A stretch of DNA of 64,000 nucleotides from Leptolyngbya sp. SIOISBB. GTDB lineage: Bacteria; Cyanobacteriota; Cyanobacteriia; Phormidesmidales; Phormidesmidaceae. Positions 30,351 to 47,166 of the stretch are shown here, piece by piece. A model generated the notes under the pieces. That model saw only the letters and a program-made list of their open reading frames with translations. It did not search any database and was not told the DNA's origin. The stretch is taken from assembly GCA_010671905.1 (NCBI GenBank), contig JAAHII010000001.1, positions 1,426,001 to 1,490,000 on the forward strand, read 5' to 3'. The position numbers were made by a program, and so were the translations under genes. How positions within the stretch are numbered: position 1 is the stretch's first letter; the number at the start of each line of letters is the position of its first letter.

Positions 30351-30642
30351 AGGGCGTACCAATTTAGTGAGGATAGTTGAGGCAGGAGGCCATATCGTCT
30401 GCCATACAGCCTTGCCTGGTCAGATCAGAACCTGCCGCAGTCTCGACACTAAGTACTCAGGACTATTTCTAGCCCTTGGGTGCGTCAGCAATGCCATATA
30501 ACAGATTGTTCCGTCCACACTATATTCTTTAAGGGGACAATAACTTTGTTAAGGCATGCTGAAAAAGCGCAATTTCGCTTTGCATAATTGGCTACTTTTT
30601 AAATGAAGGCAACGCTGCAGCCGTTACTAAACTGAGCTTTTT

Positions 30643-30837
30643 GAGTACAGATCCGGCCTCACTTCATACTTGAGCTAAAACCCCTCAAAGCCTTTGATTT
30701 AGCATTATTTTACCGAGTACACAATACCTGTACCAGGGAAGCAAAATACCTGTACTCAGGCCTAGAAATACTCGTCCCTGCCCCCTCAATAAAGTCTCAA
30801 ACCCTGATTGACCAAGGCTTAGCTCCGTTGAGTACAG
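30643..30837. promoter_or_regulatory. Cluster of GAGTACAG/CTGTACTC motifs upstream of the nif-type cysE operon
   Basis: Four related sites: GAGTACAG at 30643-30650; GAGTACA at 30715-30721; CCTGTACTCAGG at 30749-30760 (reverse); GAGTACAG at 30830-30837. In addition AATACCTGTAC occurs at 30723-30733 and again at 30745-30755, exactly 22 bp (two helical turns) apart. A weak AAGTACTCAGG lies at 30449-30459. A TATAAG at 30900-30905 may be the -10 box, with the nearest site about 70 bp upstream of it. The cluster fits operators for an activator. CnfR, encoded 5 kb downstream, is the obvious candidate; the match to CnfR is inference. Confidence 0.55.
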
Positions 30838-30934
30838 CGCTAATATTCTTAGTAAATTTGGACGACGGCAGTCCCGTGATTGTTGGATCAGGCGATTGGT
30901 ATAAGCAAGGAAACCAAGCCCCCCTTGCTGCGCC

Positions 30935-31669
30935 ATGTCCCTTTCTTCTCCCTCCATCATCACCCGCCGTTGGTGGCCGATTGGGCCTCGTTGGCACCAA
31001 CGGCTGCCGCTAGTGAATGACTTTCAAGCGATTTTTGAGCGGGACCCGGCAGCCACCAACTGGTTTGAGGTGTTGTTCTGCTCAGCGGGGTTCCACGCGA
31101 TCGCGCTACACCGTTTAGCCCACGCCCTGCATCAACAGCAGCTGCCATTAGTGCCTCGCTTGATTAGTCACCTCAGCCGCCTGCTAACAGGCATTGAGAT
31201 TCACCCAGGAGCACAACTGGGCCAAGGGGTGGTAATCGACCACGGCATGGGGGTGGTGATTGGCGAAACCGCCATTGTGGGTGACAACGTTTTGATTTAC
31301 CAGGGAGTCACCCTCGGCGGCACAGGTAAAGAACTTGGCAAGCGGCACCCCACTGTGGGCAACCACGTCGTGATCGGTGCCGGGGCTAAGGTGCTCGGCA
31401 ACATCCATATTGGCGATGCGGCTCGGGTGGGGGCGGGGTCGATTGTCTTAACCGCAGTCCCGGCTAACTGCACTGCCGTGGGAGTGCCGAATCGCATTGT
31501 CGGATGCTGCAACATTGCTGACGCCCCCCTGAACCATGCTCAACTCCCGGATACTGAGGCGGCCACGGTGCGGCAATTACTCAATCGCATTGAAACTCTG
31601 GAAGCCCAAGTTCAACAGCTCTCATCACAACGCTCTCTCATTCCTATGGAGGTTTCGCGCCATGCATAG
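30935..31669 (+). CDS. cysE: Serine O-acetyltransferase, nif-associated (NifP/CysE)
   Basis: Makes O-acetylserine from serine and acetyl-CoA for cysteine synthesis. In nif clusters this copy (nifP) boosts cysteine for Fe-S cluster assembly. The 244-residue protein has an N-terminal helical part (DFQAIFERDPAATNWFEVLF) and a left-handed beta-helix of hexapeptide repeats: GIEIHPGAQLGQGVVIDHG, VIGETAIVGDNVLIYQGV, then TLGGTGKELGKRHPTV and GAGAKVLGNI. It is first in a plus-strand run with two small genes, nifV and nifT. Its last 8 bp overlap the next start. The 27 residues before MNDFQ are an atypical extension, so an internal start at 31016 is possible. Confidence 0.93.
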   Translation: MSLSSPSIITRRWWPIGPRWHQRLPLVNDFQAIFERDPAATNWFEVLFCSAGFHAIALHRLAHALHQQQLPLVPRLISHLSRLLTGIEIHPGAQLGQGVVIDHGMGVVIGETAIVGDNVLIYQGVTLGGTGKELGKRHPTVGNHVVIGAGAKVLGNIHIGDAARVGAGSIVLTAVPANCTAVGVPNRIVGCCNIADAPLNHAQLPDTEAATVRQLLNRIETLEAQVQQLSSQRSLIPMEVSRHA

Positions 31670-31931
31670 TTTTCCTTCTCTAGCTCCTGTAAGTTTTGCG
31701 GTGGGGTCGATCCAACGATGCGATCGCTGGTCGATTCACCACCGATTACAAGAACTCAACATTACCTGTGCCTGTCCTGCAGATGGCACCTTGCGCGTTG
31801 AAGTTAACCATGTGCTTGATCTTGTCCTGACTCGCAGCGCGGTTCGACAATTCACCACCTCTCGCCAAGACAATATCGACTGGCTTGACCGCTGCTGGTA
31901 CACCCAAGTGTTGAGTACTACCAATCACTAA
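31662..31931 (+). CDS. Asr1405/Asl0597 family protein
   Basis: An 89-residue protein resembling the small product that follows nif-linked cysE in Anabaena (Asr1405). Recognisable parts are RCDRWSIHHRLQELNITCAC and VRQFTTSRQDNIDWLDRCW, a helix with conserved Trp and Arg. The function is unknown, but the position between cysE and nifV is conserved. ATG 31662 overlaps the cysE stop (ATGCATAG), which points to translational coupling. Confidence 0.8.
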   Translation: MHSFPSLAPVSFAVGSIQRCDRWSIHHRLQELNITCACPADGTLRVEVNHVLDLVLTRSAVRQFTTSRQDNIDWLDRCWYTQVLSTTNH

Positions 31932-31969
31932 AAACGTCTCCTCACGTTCTCTCACCCCTGAGTCACACC

Positions 31970-32134
31970 ATGCTTACTTCACTCATCATCGTCAGTTTCT
32001 TTTTTGCCTTTGCCTGGGCTCAACAAATCTTTCTGAATCAACTGATTCAGGCGGATCTGAAAGCACTGCAGCAATCTCGTTCCGGGGCTGCTCCAGCCGG
32101 GGTCACCCCACCGCTGCATCCCGCTGACTCTTAA
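31970..32134 (+). CDS. Small nif-cluster membrane protein (Asr1406 position)
   Basis: A 54-residue protein with one hydrophobic N-terminal segment (LTSLIIVSFFFAFAWAQQI), then a short amphipathic helix (LNQLIQADLKAL) and a Pro/Ala-rich tail. It sits between the Asr1405-like gene and nifV, where Anabaena has asr1406. I rely on gene order more than sequence for this link. No function is known. Confidence 0.65.
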   Translation: MLTSLIIVSFFFAFAWAQQIFLNQLIQADLKALQQSRSGAAPAGVTPPLHPADS

Positions 32135-32181
32135 CCTGCACCGAGCTGGTATTCCGCCCTTTCCCTCCACCACAGGTCACT

Positions 32182-33333
32182 ATGACTACACCTTCAGCAA
32201 TTGTCATTAACGATACGACCCTGCGCGACGGCGAACAGGCGGCAGGCGTTGCTTTTGGTCTCGAAGAAAAAGTGGCGATCGCCAAATTTCTCGATGCCAT
32301 TGGGGTCCCCGAATTAGAGGTCGGCATTCCGGCTATGGGTCAAGAAGAGGCCCAAGCCATTCGGGCGATCGCCGATCTCGATCTCAACGCTCATCTACTG
32401 GGTTGGAACCGGGCCGTCATCGCCGACATCGAGGCCTCCCTGCACTGCGGCCTCAAACGAGTTCACATTTCGATTCCGGTTTCTGACATCCAAATCCAGG
32501 TCAAATTTCAAGGGCGCTGGGCTCGGATGTTAGAACAGCTCCGCGATGCCATTGCCTACGCTCGGGATCATGGCCTGGAAGTGAGTGTCGGTGGCGAAGA
32601 TAGCTCCCGCGCCGACGAAACTTTCTTAATCGATGCCGCTCAATATGCCCAGGAATGGGGGGCCTTTCGCTTCCGTTTTTGTGACACTGTGGGGATTCTC
32701 GACCCGTTCACCACCTTTGACAAAGTCCAAAAACTGGTGACGGCCCTGGATATCCCCGTTGAGATGCACACCCACAATGATTTGGGCCTTGCTACGGCCA
32801 ATGCCCTTGCCGGTATCCGCGCGGGTGCCGCCTCGGTCAACACGACCGTCAATGGCCTGGGAGAACGGGCCGGTAACGCCGCGCTAGAAGAAGTCGTCAT
32901 GACGCTGAAACAAATTTACGGCCTGAAGCTGGGCATTCAGACTCAACATTTTTTGGAACTGTCGCGGTTCGTCGCCAAGGCGGTGAACTGCCCAGTGCCC
33001 CCTTGGAAAGCGATCGTCGGTCAAAATACCTTCGCCCATGAGTCGGGCATTCACGCCCACGGCATTTTGCAAAACCCCACCACTTACGAGCCCTTCGACC
33101 CCAAAGAGGTCGGCTGCCAACGCAGTCTGGTGGTCGGCAAGCATTCTGGTCGCAGCTTGCTGAATCAGGTTTTGCAAACCTATGGCATCCAGCTAGACGC
33201 GCAACATGGCCAGTCCGTCTTGCAAGCTGTGCGCGATCGCTCCACTCAGCTCAAGCGCAGTCTCACCGCCGATGAGCTGCTGACGCTCGTTGCGGGGGCA
33301 ACGGGGCAAGTCGCTCTGGGGACCTCATCCTAA
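32182..33333 (+). CDS. nifV: Homocitrate synthase
   Basis: Condenses acetyl-CoA and 2-oxoglutarate to homocitrate, the organic ligand of the nitrogenase FeMo-cofactor. The 383-residue TIM-barrel protein has [37 protein letters not shown] and [20 protein letters not shown]. It is homologous to LeuA at 6896 but lacks the long C-terminal regulatory domain, as expected for NifV. nifT starts 81 bp after its stop; nifZ, which sits between nifV and nifT in Anabaena, is absent here. Confidence 0.93.
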   Translation: MTTPSAIVINDTTLRDGEQAAGVAFGLEEKVAIAKFLDAIGVPELEVGIPAMGQEEAQAIRAIADLDLNAHLLGWNRAVIADIEASLHCGLKRVHISIPVSDIQIQVKFQGRWARMLEQLRDAIAYARDHGLEVSVGGEDSSRADETFLIDAAQYAQEWGAFRFRFCDTVGILDPFTTFDKVQKLVTALDIPVEMHTHNDLGLATANALAGIRAGAASVNTTVNGLGERAGNAALEEVVMTLKQIYGLKLGIQTQHFLELSRFVAKAVNCPVPPWKAIVGQNTFAHESGIHAHGILQNPTTYEPFDPKEVGCQRSLVVGKHSGRSLLNQVLQTYGIQLDAQHGQSVLQAVRDRSTQLKRSLTADELLTLVAGATGQVALGTSS

Positions 33334-33414
33334 ACCCCTAACGGCTCCCTGCTCCAGCTTTTTCCTGCCCCGATCAATGCCCCGTTCTCAATCCCATCTC
33401 CTTGAGGAAACGAC

Positions 33415-33618
33415 ATGAAAGTAATGCTGCACAACGGTGAAAACGGCCAACTGATGGTCTACGTCGCCAAAAAAGATCTGGAGGAAGAAGTGGTGAGCCA
33501 AACGACCGAAGGCGACGCCACCTTGGTCACCCTCTCTAACGGCTGGGAACTCTCCATTAATGGCCTCAGCGACCCGCTAAAACTGCCTAAAACCGTCAAT
33601 GCCAAACGGCTGAATTGA
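33415..33618 (+). CDS. nifT: Nitrogen fixation protein NifT/FixU
   Basis: A 67-residue NifT/FixU protein: MKVMLHNGENGQLMVYVAKK, then WELSINGLSDPLKLP and TVNAKRLN. The precise role is unresolved; it is usually near nifZ and not essential. A GAGG ribosome site is 8 bp before the ATG. It is the last gene of the cysE-nifV-nifT run. The following 291 bp to 33909 show no gene. Confidence 0.93.
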   Translation: MKVMLHNGENGQLMVYVAKKDLEEEVVSQTTEGDATLVTLSNGWELSINGLSDPLKLPKTVNAKRLN

Positions 33619-33909
33619 GCTTTTGCACCGCCGCCAGGTGAATTAGGACAGATTGCCCAAAGATATCGCCAAGAGCAGACTTCAGAGTCCAGACTGCAGA
33701 CCGGAAAAGCTCACATGTTAGGGATTTCAGCCATCTAAGTTATTCACCGATCAGTGTTTGCTGCGTTGAACAACTCAAGGGCTGAGCCAGTAACCACGCC
33801 ATCCATCAACTCTCTGTCCTAAACATAGCTGCCAACGCCTAACGCCGACCCCGCCTTCACCCGATTCCCTGATACGCTCCCCGCTTTTAACCCTTACCCT
33901 CCCAGTGCC

Positions 33910-34518
33910 ATGTTGAATGCCCCACACCTCCCCTCCCGACATTTCAACCTTGAAGGTACGCTCATCGGCTTCTTGGGAGGCAAAGCCAGCAAGCCTAAGT
34001 CCCTCATCTTAGAAGTTGAGCAAGAAGAACTGGCGATTCAACTGCCCAAGGAATTGCGATCGCACGTTCAGCATTATCTCCACCCCGGCGATCGCGTTGC
34101 CTGCGTCGGCGCGACCGAGGTGGACTATAAAGCTGGCATCATCAAACTCAAAGCTGCACAAGTATTTTGCCTCTCTCGACCCACGATCACGACGGCCCCA
34201 TCGCCTCCCCGCGAGACCGGCCCCTGTCCGACTCGAGAGCAGTGTTCCAGCAGTTCTGATAAGGCCTCCGCCAAGATTTTGGTGTGTCGCAAATCTGGGT
34301 GTCAAAAGCGGGCCGGTAGAGCGGTTGTCACCGCCGTTGAACAAGCGCTGCAAGACTATCAACTCGAAGGTCAGGTCAAAATTCAATATACCGGTTGCCA
34401 AAAGCGATGTTCCAAGTCGCCTAGCCTCACAATCATGCCGGGCAAGCATCGCTACAGCAGCCTTAAACCGCAACATGTTCCGGCCTTAATTGCCGAACAC
34501 TTCTGCTCTGCCGAGTGA
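33910..34518 (+). CDS. (2Fe-2S) ferredoxin-domain protein with N-terminal OB-like domain
   Basis: A 202-residue protein. Residues 12-90 look like a small beta-barrel of OB type (LEGTLIGFLGGKASKPKSLI, then HPGDRVACVGATEVD). A Pro/Ser-rich linker follows. Residues 120-195 form a thioredoxin-like [2Fe-2S] ferredoxin: ILVCRKSGCQKRAGRAV and YTGCQKRCSKSPSL supply the four Cys in C-x4-C and C-x3-C pairs. Such proteins sit near nif genes in cyanobacteria and may donate electrons or act in cofactor work; this is inference. It ends 28 bp before the cyclotransferase start. Confidence 0.82.
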   Translation: MLNAPHLPSRHFNLEGTLIGFLGGKASKPKSLILEVEQEELAIQLPKELRSHVQHYLHPGDRVACVGATEVDYKAGIIKLKAAQVFCLSRPTITTAPSPPRETGPCPTREQCSSSSDKASAKILVCRKSGCQKRAGRAVVTAVEQALQDYQLEGQVKIQYTGCQKRCSKSPSLTIMPGKHRYSSLKPQHVPALIAEHFCSAE

Positions 34519-34546
34519 CGCTCCCTCTTCACCGTCTTTTCTTCCC

Positions 34547-35134
34547 ATGCCTAAACTTCCTGCGTTGTTCACAGCATCCCCAACGGCCCGCCCGCTTTCT
34601 CGGCGGCACCAGGTGCGAGAGACGTTATCGCCCCCCTCATCAACGGCCGCTGAAAGTTGGTTTTACTACTTTGCCTACGGGTCATGTATGTGTCCAGTTG
34701 ATCTGAAGCGATCGCTGGGGGAGAGCACTCATCAATACGTTATTGGCCCAGCGACGCTCAAGGGCTACCGTTTAGGCTTTCACTATTACTCAGCCCAACG
34801 CAACTGCGGGGCGTTAGATATCTTGCCGGATGCTCACAGTGAGGTTCACGGTGTTTTATATGCTCTGCCCTGGCGCCTCAGCGATCGCTTGGATCAACGG
34901 GAAGGCGTGCAACAGGGTCACTATCGCTATGAATCTGTGGTCGTAGCCGATACTCATCAACGATATATTGGCGTCCGCACCTACACAGTGGTGCAAAAAA
35001 GCCCAGTCGAAATTGCGCCCAACGACTGGTATTTCGGGGTCGTATTGCGTGGCGCCATCACCTGTCAGCTCCCAGAGTCTTACTGCTGGGAGCTTTTTAA
35101 TCACATGCACGGTCTACAAACAGCCTGCGCTTAA
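34547..35134 (+). CDS. Gamma-glutamylcyclotransferase-like (AIG2/GGCT) protein
   Basis: A 195-residue protein with the GGCT fold. FYYFAYGSCMCP gives the substrate-binding loop; the usual motif is YFAYGSN, so Cys replaces Asn. DQREGVQQGHYRYE contains the likely catalytic Glu. GPATLKGYRLGFHYYS and GVLYALPWRLS are further family blocks. Members cleave gamma-glutamyl amines or glutathione-type peptides; the substrate here is unknown. It follows the ferredoxin gene closely and is probably part of the same transcript. Confidence 0.82.
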   Translation: MPKLPALFTASPTARPLSRRHQVRETLSPPSSTAAESWFYYFAYGSCMCPVDLKRSLGESTHQYVIGPATLKGYRLGFHYYSAQRNCGALDILPDAHSEVHGVLYALPWRLSDRLDQREGVQQGHYRYESVVVADTHQRYIGVRTYTVVQKSPVEIAPNDWYFGVVLRGAITCQLPESYCWELFNHMHGLQTACA

Positions 35135-35156
35135 TTCGTCCCCGAGGGATGCTGCC

Positions 35157-35333
35157 ATGTCCATCAAATTTCGCGTTTTCTTGTGTGAATTGGGCTTTTG
35201 GCTGACGGCTGAGGTCATGTTGGGTTTCTTAGGATTTGATGACTTAGCTGACTACACCGAATATTTGAAGCAACGTGACGCGATCGCATTACTCCAAACC
35301 AGTCAAAACACCCCATTGACCAGTATTGCCTAG
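35157..35333 (+). CDS. Small protein of the nif satellite locus
   Basis: A 58-residue protein starting MSIKFRVFLCELGFWLTAEV, then LGFLGFDDLADYTEYLKQ and a polar tail. It is aromatic and hydrophobic at the N-terminus with an acidic middle helix. It lies 22 bp after the cyclotransferase stop on the same strand, with GAGG 10 bp before the ATG. I do not know the family for certain; gene context ties it to nif. Confidence 0.65.
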   Translation: MSIKFRVFLCELGFWLTAEVMLGFLGFDDLADYTEYLKQRDAIALLQTSQNTPLTSIA

Positions 35334-35977
35334 CCCCCATGAAACCTCTCAAGCCTTTACACAGCCATCACTTCCCTAGCATCCTTTACCTGAGCCCCGT
35401 GTTCGACTCGCCTCTGTCACCGCCAAAACCCTCAAGCACATCAATAAAATGTTGCACCACATTACGTAACATCCAGAGATACAAAATGTATGGGCAATTC
35501 ATTATTTCTCTTTTCAGAAAGGTCTTCTTGATCACACAAAAGAGTTCTTGAATGTCCATTCTGAACTTACTTTTAGAAAATATCTAAATAATTCCTTAAA
35601 CGGTATCAGCGGTTATCTATTCAGCGGTTATCTATTGCTATTTCTATGAACGAGTTAAGTATGATTTTCATTGAGACCAATTTACAAATTGGAATAAATT
35701 GCCCGACTTTGCTGACTTGAATTCTGGTTTTCATAATTTGAATGAAAACAAAATTTTTCAATCATTACATAATACTTAAAGGGAGCGATCGCTCCTCAAG
35801 ATATTGTCATTGGCAGGTATGTGAGAATAGTTTGAACTGTTGAAAGCTATAGCTAGCAGACCTTTCATTTCTGAACTCGAAAGTTCGCTTTTTGCGATCG
35901 CGCCGACAAAATCTCGGAATCCTGTCAGCCAACTACCTAGCCCGCTGCTCAACTGCAATCAAGGGAGGAAAAATTTA
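35334..35977 (+). promoter_or_regulatory. AT-rich leader of cnfR with tandem repeat and palindrome
   Basis: About 640 bp with no gene that I can support. CAGCGGTTATCTATT is duplicated head to tail at 35607-35621 and 35622-35636. CCAATTTACAAATTGG at 35677-35692 is a perfect 7-bp inverted repeat. Both sit 285-370 bp before the cnfR start and are candidate regulator sites. A very strong ribosome site, AAGGGAGGAA, at 35961-35970 sets the cnfR start. The in-frame extension back to 35840 is judged untranslated. Confidence 0.6.
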
Positions 35978-37603
35978 ATGACTCAAACGGTTGACAATGA
36001 TAGTTGCACCCTGTGCAATGCTTGCCAGTCAATTTGTCCGCAGGGAGCAATTAAGGAGAATGATGAGACTGACGGCTTTTGGATTGACCCCACCCTATGC
36101 AATGACTGCGTAGACCAACCCACCCGACTCTGTGCCGAGTTTTGCCAAGCCAATGCGGTAGCGCCCCTGCAGCCCAAAAAGGGGCGCTGTAAGAGTACGC
36201 TGCTGCCTGCTGCTATTCCCGATATCTTTCTCAACGACAAAACCAACCCCTTTGCCTCTTCTATTGTGATTTGGGAAAGTTGCAATATTTTGGCTCAGCG
36301 CTCTGCCGCTGCTTGGCATCCGGATGAAGAGGGCAAGTGGTGCTATCAGCGATCGGTTAATCGAGGTCGAGGCAGTCTCCAGTTTCGCCTTTTAGAAGAC
36401 CCGACTGCCGAGATCTTGGCGCCGCTCTCAGCGTCAGGGACGGAGAAAATTTTTGCCGATTTTGACATTCGAGCCGCCTGTATTCATTTAATCTTGGCTG
36501 CCCACACCACAACTTTAAACAAGCCGTGGGAAGAGACCTTTGTGATCAATGATCAGCACTTTGAGCAGTATCTGGGCCTCGACAAGCGCCGCGATTTGAC
36601 CAAACTCGAAAAACTGACGCTAATTAAGTCCCTGGTATATCAGTGTTGTCAGCTTTTAGTCGCGTTGGAATGGCCGCGGCAAGGTCAGGTGCCGGCCTTC
36701 TCAGTACCAGAACATCCGGTCTGGCACCTAATCGATACCCACTATTACTGGGAAGCCGACGCCGCCGACCAAAATCACTTGATCGGCCTCAGTTTTACCA
36801 TCCGAGCCGGGAGCTGGGCTAAGCACTTTTTAAATAAACAAGACTATCGCCGCCATCGAGCTTTTTATCAATACGGGACGTTACCCAAATCCTTACTCAC
36901 AGAAGTCATGAGCAACTGGCAGCAACACGAGGGCGCGGTTCGGTTGCTGCTGTGGTTGCTGTTCAAACTGCGGTTAGGTGGCGAACACCGCATGACCGTT
37001 CGGACTCTGCTCAAAATCGCCTATGGCGAGGATCGCCTGACCGAAGCCACGACCGTGCGCGGTGCTCACAAACGATTACTCAAAACGTTTGAAGGAGATT
37101 TAGAGGCGATCTACTACTATGGCCTCCAACCCATTTTTGATCCAGAAACCTATCCCCCCGAAATTCAACCCCTGTGGATGCGGGCCAACCAAATTCCTGA
37201 TTCGGCTGATGACGCGCTAGATTTTTGGACGCGAGACGCCAATCATCATCTCAGCCTTACTGATGCGGCCCCCCGCGATAAGTGGCAGCGTCTACTTAAC
37301 GGCCGCCTTTGCGGATTTGAACTCTCAGCAGAATGGCAGCAAACGATCAAGAAAACGCCTGCTAAACGCCGACAAAAACCCAAATCATCCAGTCAGCACT
37401 TGGTTGATATGCTCTCCAGCAGCCGTATCAAATCGGCCCGCCAAGAACAAAATCTGTCGCAAAGGGCTTTAGCCGATCGCATTGGCAAAAGCCAAAGTTG
37501 GGTGCGCGACGTCGAAAACGGCCGGTTTGGGATTAATGCCAAAGATCAGTCCCTTTTACGAACCGCCCTCAATCTGCCACTCGCGCTAAAAGCCAAGACC
37601 TAA
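35978..37603 (+). CDS. cnfR: CnfR/PatB-type Fe-S and HTH transcriptional activator of nif genes
   Basis: CnfR (PatB in Anabaena) activates nif genes under micro-oxic conditions; its clusters are thought to sense oxygen. The 541-residue protein has an N-terminal ferredoxin-like domain with two Cys sets: C10, C13, C16, C20 (SCTLCNACQSICP) and C41, C44, C52, C56. A long central region is typical of this family. Residues 480-540 form an XRE-type helix-turn-helix (IKSARQEQNLSQRALADRIG, then SQSWVRDVENGRFG). The ATG at 35978 has an excellent ribosome site. It is transcribed in the same direction as the cysE-nifV-nifT run, 2.4 kb downstream. The architecture is diagnostic. Confidence 0.93.
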   Translation: MTQTVDNDSCTLCNACQSICPQGAIKENDETDGFWIDPTLCNDCVDQPTRLCAEFCQANAVAPLQPKKGRCKSTLLPAAIPDIFLNDKTNPFASSIVIWESCNILAQRSAAAWHPDEEGKWCYQRSVNRGRGSLQFRLLEDPTAEILAPLSASGTEKIFADFDIRAACIHLILAAHTTTLNKPWEETFVINDQHFEQYLGLDKRRDLTKLEKLTLIKSLVYQCCQLLVALEWPRQGQVPAFSVPEHPVWHLIDTHYYWEADAADQNHLIGLSFTIRAGSWAKHFLNKQDYRRHRAFYQYGTLPKSLLTEVMSNWQQHEGAVRLLLWLLFKLRLGGEHRMTVRTLLKIAYGEDRLTEATTVRGAHKRLLKTFEGDLEAIYYYGLQPIFDPETYPPEIQPLWMRANQIPDSADDALDFWTRDANHHLSLTDAAPRDKWQRLLNGRLCGFELSAEWQQTIKKTPAKRRQKPKSSSQHLVDMLSSSRIKSARQEQNLSQRALADRIGKSQSWVRDVENGRFGINAKDQSLLRTALNLPLALKAKT

Positions 37604-46320: not shown

Positions 46321-47166
46321 ATGGATTATCTCAAGCAATCAATACGTCGGTTGGGTAAGCGCTGTCTGTATGGGGCGATCGCACTCATCGTCGCGACCGG
46401 ATTGGTCGCCACAACACCACAGCCCTCCAAGGCTGACATCAATCTTTTTGATCTGATTTTCAATGGCATTCAATATATTCAATTATCGAACCTCAGCAAT
46501 GAGCAGGAAGTTGATTTAGGTCAACAAACTGATCGCGCCCTCAAACGTCAAGGTGTTCGCATTTACAATCGCAACCCCGAAGTGGTGAACTACGTGAATG
46601 AAATCGGCCAGCGATTGGCCGCAACCAGCGATCGCACTAACATTCCTTACACGTTTCAAATCGTGCAGGATGATAGCATCAACGCCTTTGCCACCTCGGG
46701 CGGATTCGTCTACCTCCACACGGGATTGATTCGCGCCGCTGACACTGAAGCAGAACTGGCTGGCGTCATTGCCCACGAAATTGGCCATATTGTCGGTCGG
46801 CACTCAGTCAACCGCATGCGAGAAATCACCTTAGCTAATGGCATCGTCGGGGCACTTGGGGTGTCGCAAGACGATTTGGTCAACATTGGCGTGCAGTTGG
46901 CTTTATTTTTGCCCAATAGCCGGACAGCTGAGTATGAGGCGGATGAATTGGGCTACTTCAACATGGGCCGAGCCGGTTATGACCAGCGAGGCTTGATTTC
47001 CTTTATGGAAAATCTGAGTGGTGGCACCCCAGAATTCTTTAGTACTCACCCTGATCCAGGCAACCGAGTCAATCGCCTAAGGGAAATGTACGCCGAATCG
47101 CATCAGGCTGGAGCAACCTACGGCAATAATCCGGAAATCTATCGCTCTAAAATGAGCAGTCTGTAG
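46321..47166 (+). CDS. M48 family metalloprotease
   Basis: A 281-residue exported zinc protease. The signal peptide is residues 1-38 (ALIVATGLVATTPQPSKAD). Zinc motif VIAHEIGHIVGRHS gives HExxH with the catalytic Glu; the third ligand is the Glu in TAEYEADELG. STHPDPGNRVNRL is the usual M48 tail. It is related to BepA/LoiP-type envelope quality-control proteases, which is the likely role. ATG 46321 starts the signal peptide. Its last 20 bp overlap the 3' end of the convergent coaX gene. Confidence 0.9.
   Translation: MDYLKQSIRRLGKRCLYGAIALIVATGLVATTPQPSKADINLFDLIFNGIQYIQLSNLSNEQEVDLGQQTDRALKRQGVRIYNRNPEVVNYVNEIGQRLAATSDRTNIPYTFQIVQDDSINAFATSGGFVYLHTGLIRAADTEAELAGVIAHEIGHIVGRHSVNRMREITLANGIVGALGVSQDDLVNIGVQLALFLPNSRTAEYEADELGYFNMGRAGYDQRGLISFMENLSGGTPEFFSTHPDPGNRVNRLREMYAESHQAGATYGNNPEIYRSKMSSL

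Follow-up and report, generated by a model that had tools for sequence, protein, structure and literature searches.

A putative CnfR-responsive promoter element upstream of the nifP-nifV-nifT operon in Leptolyngbya sp. SIOISBB, and a candidate compact version outside the nif clusters

We identified an ordered array of short sites followed by a promoter at positions 30641-30904 of the window, the whole 64,000-nucleotide stretch of Leptolyngbya sp. SIOISBB DNA analysed here. Judged from sequence comparisons, this region is very probably both the promoter of the nifP-nifV-nifT operon and the element through which that operon responds to CnfR (Table 1). CnfR is the master activator of cyanobacterial nitrogenase genes and a tool in efforts at moving nitrogen fixation into new hosts. 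Because a matching CnfR cis-element has been reported for nif promoters of Leptolyngbya and Anabaena, we consider the array to be a further example of a known element, for which a description from about 90 promoters now gives precise and testable rules on how many boxes there are, on the 22-bp phasing and on promoter distance. The full element type is already known, and a compact class of the element is the more novel lead.

Table 1. Sites, promoter and genes of the nifP region (window coordinates)
Feature	Position	Strand	Basis or remark
Distal GAGTACA box (TTGAGTACAG)	30641..30650	+	sequence; 187 bp before proximal box
Profile match to nifB/nifP element	30711..30905	+	nhmmer E 4.2e-31; model positions 6-201 of 202
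Middle GAGTACA box	30715..30721	+	sequence; 115 bp before proximal box
AATACNNGTNC repeat 1 (AATACCTGTACC)	30723..30734	+	sequence and comparison with related promoters
AATACNNGTNC repeat 2 (AATACCTGTACTC)	30745..30757	+	22 bp after repeat 1; contains minus-strand GTACTC
AATACNNGTNC repeat 3 (AATACTCGTCCC)	30767..30778	+	22 bp after repeat 2
Proximal box TTGAGTACAGCGCTAATATTCTTAGTAAAT	30828..30857	+	nifB-derived pattern, 4 mismatches; form as in nifP promoters of near relatives
Extended -10 (TGGTATAA)	30897..30904	+	TATAA starts 70 bp after proximal GAGTACA
nifP (serine acetyltransferase, cysE type)	30935..31669	+	TIGR01172, 240 bits (cut-off 211); neighbourhood as for nifP of relatives
Asr1405/Asl0597-family small protein	31662..31931	+	NF045598, 98 bits
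nifV (homocitrate synthase)	32182..33333	+	TIGR02660, 537 bits
nifT	33415..33618	+	TIGR02934, 71 bits
cnfR	35978..37603	+	Pfam Fer4 (N-terminal) and HTH_3 (C-terminal)

The word GAGTACA occurs on the plus strand at 30643, 30715 and 30830, and TGTACTC is found at 30751. The middle box reads CGAGTACA and the proximal GAGTACA is followed by an A/T-rich box, giving three boxes of the TGAGTAYA type together with three 22-bp repeats, at spacings of 22, 22, 115 and 70 bp. The start of nifP, the first gene after the array, lies 108 bp downstream of the start of the proximal box. The putative promoter consists of an extended -10, 70 bp from the box to TATAA as against 68-71 bp in relatives, with no TTGACA-like -35 at the nifP promoter. 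An initial annotation had proposed four sites in both orientations within 195 bp, including two AATACCTGTAC words 22 bp apart. The pair is indeed found at 30723 and 30745 and all four words are present, but the two orientations do not stand, as the word on the minus strand forms the last part of repeat 2. The reading as an inverted operator of four sites was rejected because that word ends a direct repeat which reads GTACC in relatives. Specifically, related promoters carry their GAGTACA boxes on the coding strand and their repeats usually contain GTACC. The palindrome GAGTACA-N9-TGTACTC has no match across the whole genome. On its sequence, the nifP array is best described as a phased array of direct sites. 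The earlier inventory also overlooked repeat 3 (30767), the A/T-rich part of the proximal box and the extended -10 (30897-30904); thus the unit extends from about 30641 to 30904, rather than over 30643-30837 as first delimited.

The same layout is found at nif promoters throughout the cyanobacteria. We compared 54 cyanobacterial and 26 proteobacterial nifB loci, as well as the cnfR regions of relatives, locating nifP and nifB in them by tblastn. The resulting set holds 92 promoters (90 distinct), 57 of nifB and 35 of nifP. Their proximal box resembles TTTGAGTACAN4TAATNNNTNNAATAA, and an extended -10, TGNTATAA, follows it at 68-71 bp. Promoters were admitted only if they had a -10 within a 20-bp range, which partly accounts for all of them having one; the narrow spacing was no selection criterion, and every one of the 90 promoters in the spacing set has 68-71 bp between proximal box and TATAA. 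The promoters of L043, L047, L051, L054, L055 and L056 were missed by the simple pattern and matched by the later profile. Of 148 repeat spacings measured, 109 are exactly 22 bp. Distances from the middle to the proximal box fall mostly into two classes, 114-117 and 126-128 bp, about one helical turn apart, and those from the distal to the proximal box are mostly 186-191 or 196-199 bp. Proteobacterial nifB loci have at least seven mismatches to the box pattern and no such -10. Almost all the diazotrophic cyanobacteria examined carry the element in front of nitrogen-fixation genes. The enrichment at related nif promoters on which the initial annotation had made its proposal depend is seen at nearly every nifB and nifP gene examined in cyanobacteria and at none of the proteobacterial nifB loci.

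We trained a profile on 69 promoters of nifB or nifP from other cyanobacteria, leaving out both promoters of the SIOISBB genome; it matched the window array (Table 1) and also recovered the genome's own nifB promoter (L005:14392-14588, E 6.8e-27). The same search returned nothing below E 4 in the 26 proteobacterial nifB loci (465 kb), and a plasmid collection searched with the array gave no match. In a scan of the whole 8.34-Mb genome with a sequence-only covariance model, full elements were detected at nifP (E 8.2e-25) and nifB only, plus one clearly weaker partial match.

The initial annotation had placed cysE, nifV and nifT after the array, and TIGR01172, TIGR02660 and TIGR02934 all match there. 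Two small genes lie between nifP and nifV (31662-31931 and 31970-32134), and no family match was found for the second, a 54-amino-acid open reading frame. The cnfR gene is likewise present downstream as proposed, at 5.1 kb from the array instead of the suggested 4-5 kb. Its product has a ferredoxin-like N terminus and an XRE-type helix-turn-helix C terminus, and is 60-80% identical to homologues of near relatives. Neither an array nor a GTAN8TAC box was found upstream of cnfR, in 35134-35975.

CnfR is presumed to be the activator of the array, although conservation by itself does not tell which protein binds. Across 145 genomes, the element is accompanied by a strong cnfR match in 49; 2 have cnfR only, 7 the element only and 87 neither (Fisher p about 2e-28, a statistic that ignores shared ancestry). 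Among the element-only genomes, three of family f16 and G115 carry only divergent cnfR homologues (about 37-41% identity), G073 has a truncated cnfR match, the G027 assembly is 73% complete and that of G067 is in 1150 contigs. As summarized in PMC5943405, citing Tsujimoto 2016, CnfR activates nifB and nifP of Leptolyngbya boryana, with conserved motifs I-IX involved. PMC8510180 treats three conserved cis elements in front of nifB as presumed CnfR sites and reports that losing sites lowers nifB1 expression in Anabaena variabilis; PMC4284476 describes a TGAGTATA motif that the upstream regions of Anabaena nifB1 and nifB2 have in common. The interpretation as a CnfR element, which the initial annotation had advanced, thus gains support from nif-promoter conservation, cnfR co-occurrence and the published nifB/nifP motifs, and we regard it as highly probable.

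Another nif-associated regulator, NtcA or some other protein, could instead recognize the array, with CnfR acting only indirectly. The support for CnfR in PMC8510180 and PMC5943405 is genetic and reporter-based, and no footprint was found there, which leaves some room for such a protein. However, when nif genes were placed in the non-nitrogen-fixing Synechocystis, they were expressed from nifB/nifP promoters with cnfR and not without it (PMC5943405). In addition, the region 30363-30935 contains no NtcA box (GTAN8TAC) and no NifA/sigma-54 sites (TGT-N10-ACA or TGGCAC-N5-TTGC), and so resembles neither an NtcA-activated nor a NifA/sigma-54 promoter. We therefore consider a regulator other than CnfR improbable. 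It is far less probable still that the array is a chance cluster of words without regulatory role. GTACTC is only mildly enriched over the whole window (22 occurrences against 13.8 expected, a count reached in 2 of 100 shuffles), as chance clustering would have it, yet four GAGTAC words on either strand fall within 195 bp in only 1 of 400 first-order Markov versions of the window. The independent profile match, at E 4e-31 with conserved spacing, speaks against chance as well, and cross-genome conservation already refutes it. A few GTACTC words elsewhere are isolated, as noted earlier, at the exact positions 47042 and 48529, close to the approximate 47041 and 48531 first given. An extra GTACTC at 30453-30458, 190 bp upstream of the distal box and outside the conserved layout, is probably due to chance.

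We propose that CnfR, whose gene lies 5 kb downstream, would bind the three GAGTACA boxes and the three AATACNNGTNC repeats, presumably in response to low oxygen and low combined nitrogen. The 22-bp phasing would put the repeats on one face of the helix, and CnfR may then recruit RNA polymerase to the extended -10 without a -35, 70 bp from the proximal box. CnfR contact with these bases in SIOISBB, the boxes involved and the number of protomers are features that we infer.

The array shares with the CnfR cis-element described for L. boryana (Tsujimoto, Kamiya and Fujita 2016, as cited in PMC5943405) its location upstream of nifB/nifP and the presence of several conserved motifs, I-IX in that organism, where they serve recognition by CnfR. 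The cnfR gene lies in the same nif neighbourhood in both organisms. In L. boryana the nifB and nifP operons diverge from one intergenic region, whereas the two arms are 4.4 Mb apart in SIOISBB. The nifB1/nifB2 sites of A. variabilis (PMC4284476, PMC8510180) have in common with the array three TGAGTATA-type boxes and an extended -10 without a -35; those sites were published for nifB, whereas the array described here is at nifP. Promoters of the Nostoc type have both their middle and their distal box about 11-12 bp further away from the proximal one than in SIOISBB.

Close relatives have nifP and nifB diverging from a single region of about 1.1-1.7 kb, with one array each. The SIOISBB contig that holds both has nifB at 5.855 Mb and the nifP array at 1.457 Mb. 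Thus, the nif cluster has been split in this genome, and each arm has kept a complete array, which indicates that each array is self-sufficient. The nifP-nifV-nifT-cnfR arm occupies 30935-37603 of the window and the nifB arm L005:14876-16381.

The weaker partial match of the genome scan (C1:3165857-3165961, E 7.8e-4) recurs in relatives and defines a compact version of the element, which in the SIOISBB genome (G000) spans C1:3165857-3165981 (L187). It has one AATACNNGTNC repeat and a proximal GAGTACA-TAAT box, and its -10 lies 44-46 bp away; compared with the 68-71 bp of the full element this is about 25 bp closer, near one 22-bp repeat unit. The SIOISBB site has a poor -10 (TACCAT). A model built from 18 compact sites, with the SIOISBB genome held out, recovers the SIOISBB site (E 7.7e-15), and its only other matches there are the nifP and nifB elements. 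Downstream of the site is a gene for a 125-amino-acid protein (C1:3166071-3166445; L174:1501-1875). Its orthologues occur in 12 of the 145 genomes, all of which have the full element (p 5e-6), and the compact site precedes all 11 orthologues with enough upstream DNA. The protein has a sub-threshold match to PF02579 (E 0.27), a weak similarity to FeMo-cofactor-binding proteins, and a weak profile match to 1p90 (E 1.3); its low-confidence structure model (pLDDT 59) gave no meaningful PDB match. We found no mention of the compact version in the papers searched, and it may have been described before.

On balance, we lean towards the view that CnfR also controls genes outside the nif clusters through this second, compact promoter type, the target in SIOISBB being the 125-amino-acid orphan. 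If so, the CnfR regulon would reach beyond the nif clusters, and the compact version would flag an uncharacterized candidate nitrogenase accessory gene. In relatives, compact sites were located at L165 (5302-5432), L155 (4510-4640), L157 (4990-5120), L159 (4079-4209) and L164 (4353-4483), and relatives' sites precede molbindin (mop), cupin and ArsC-family genes.
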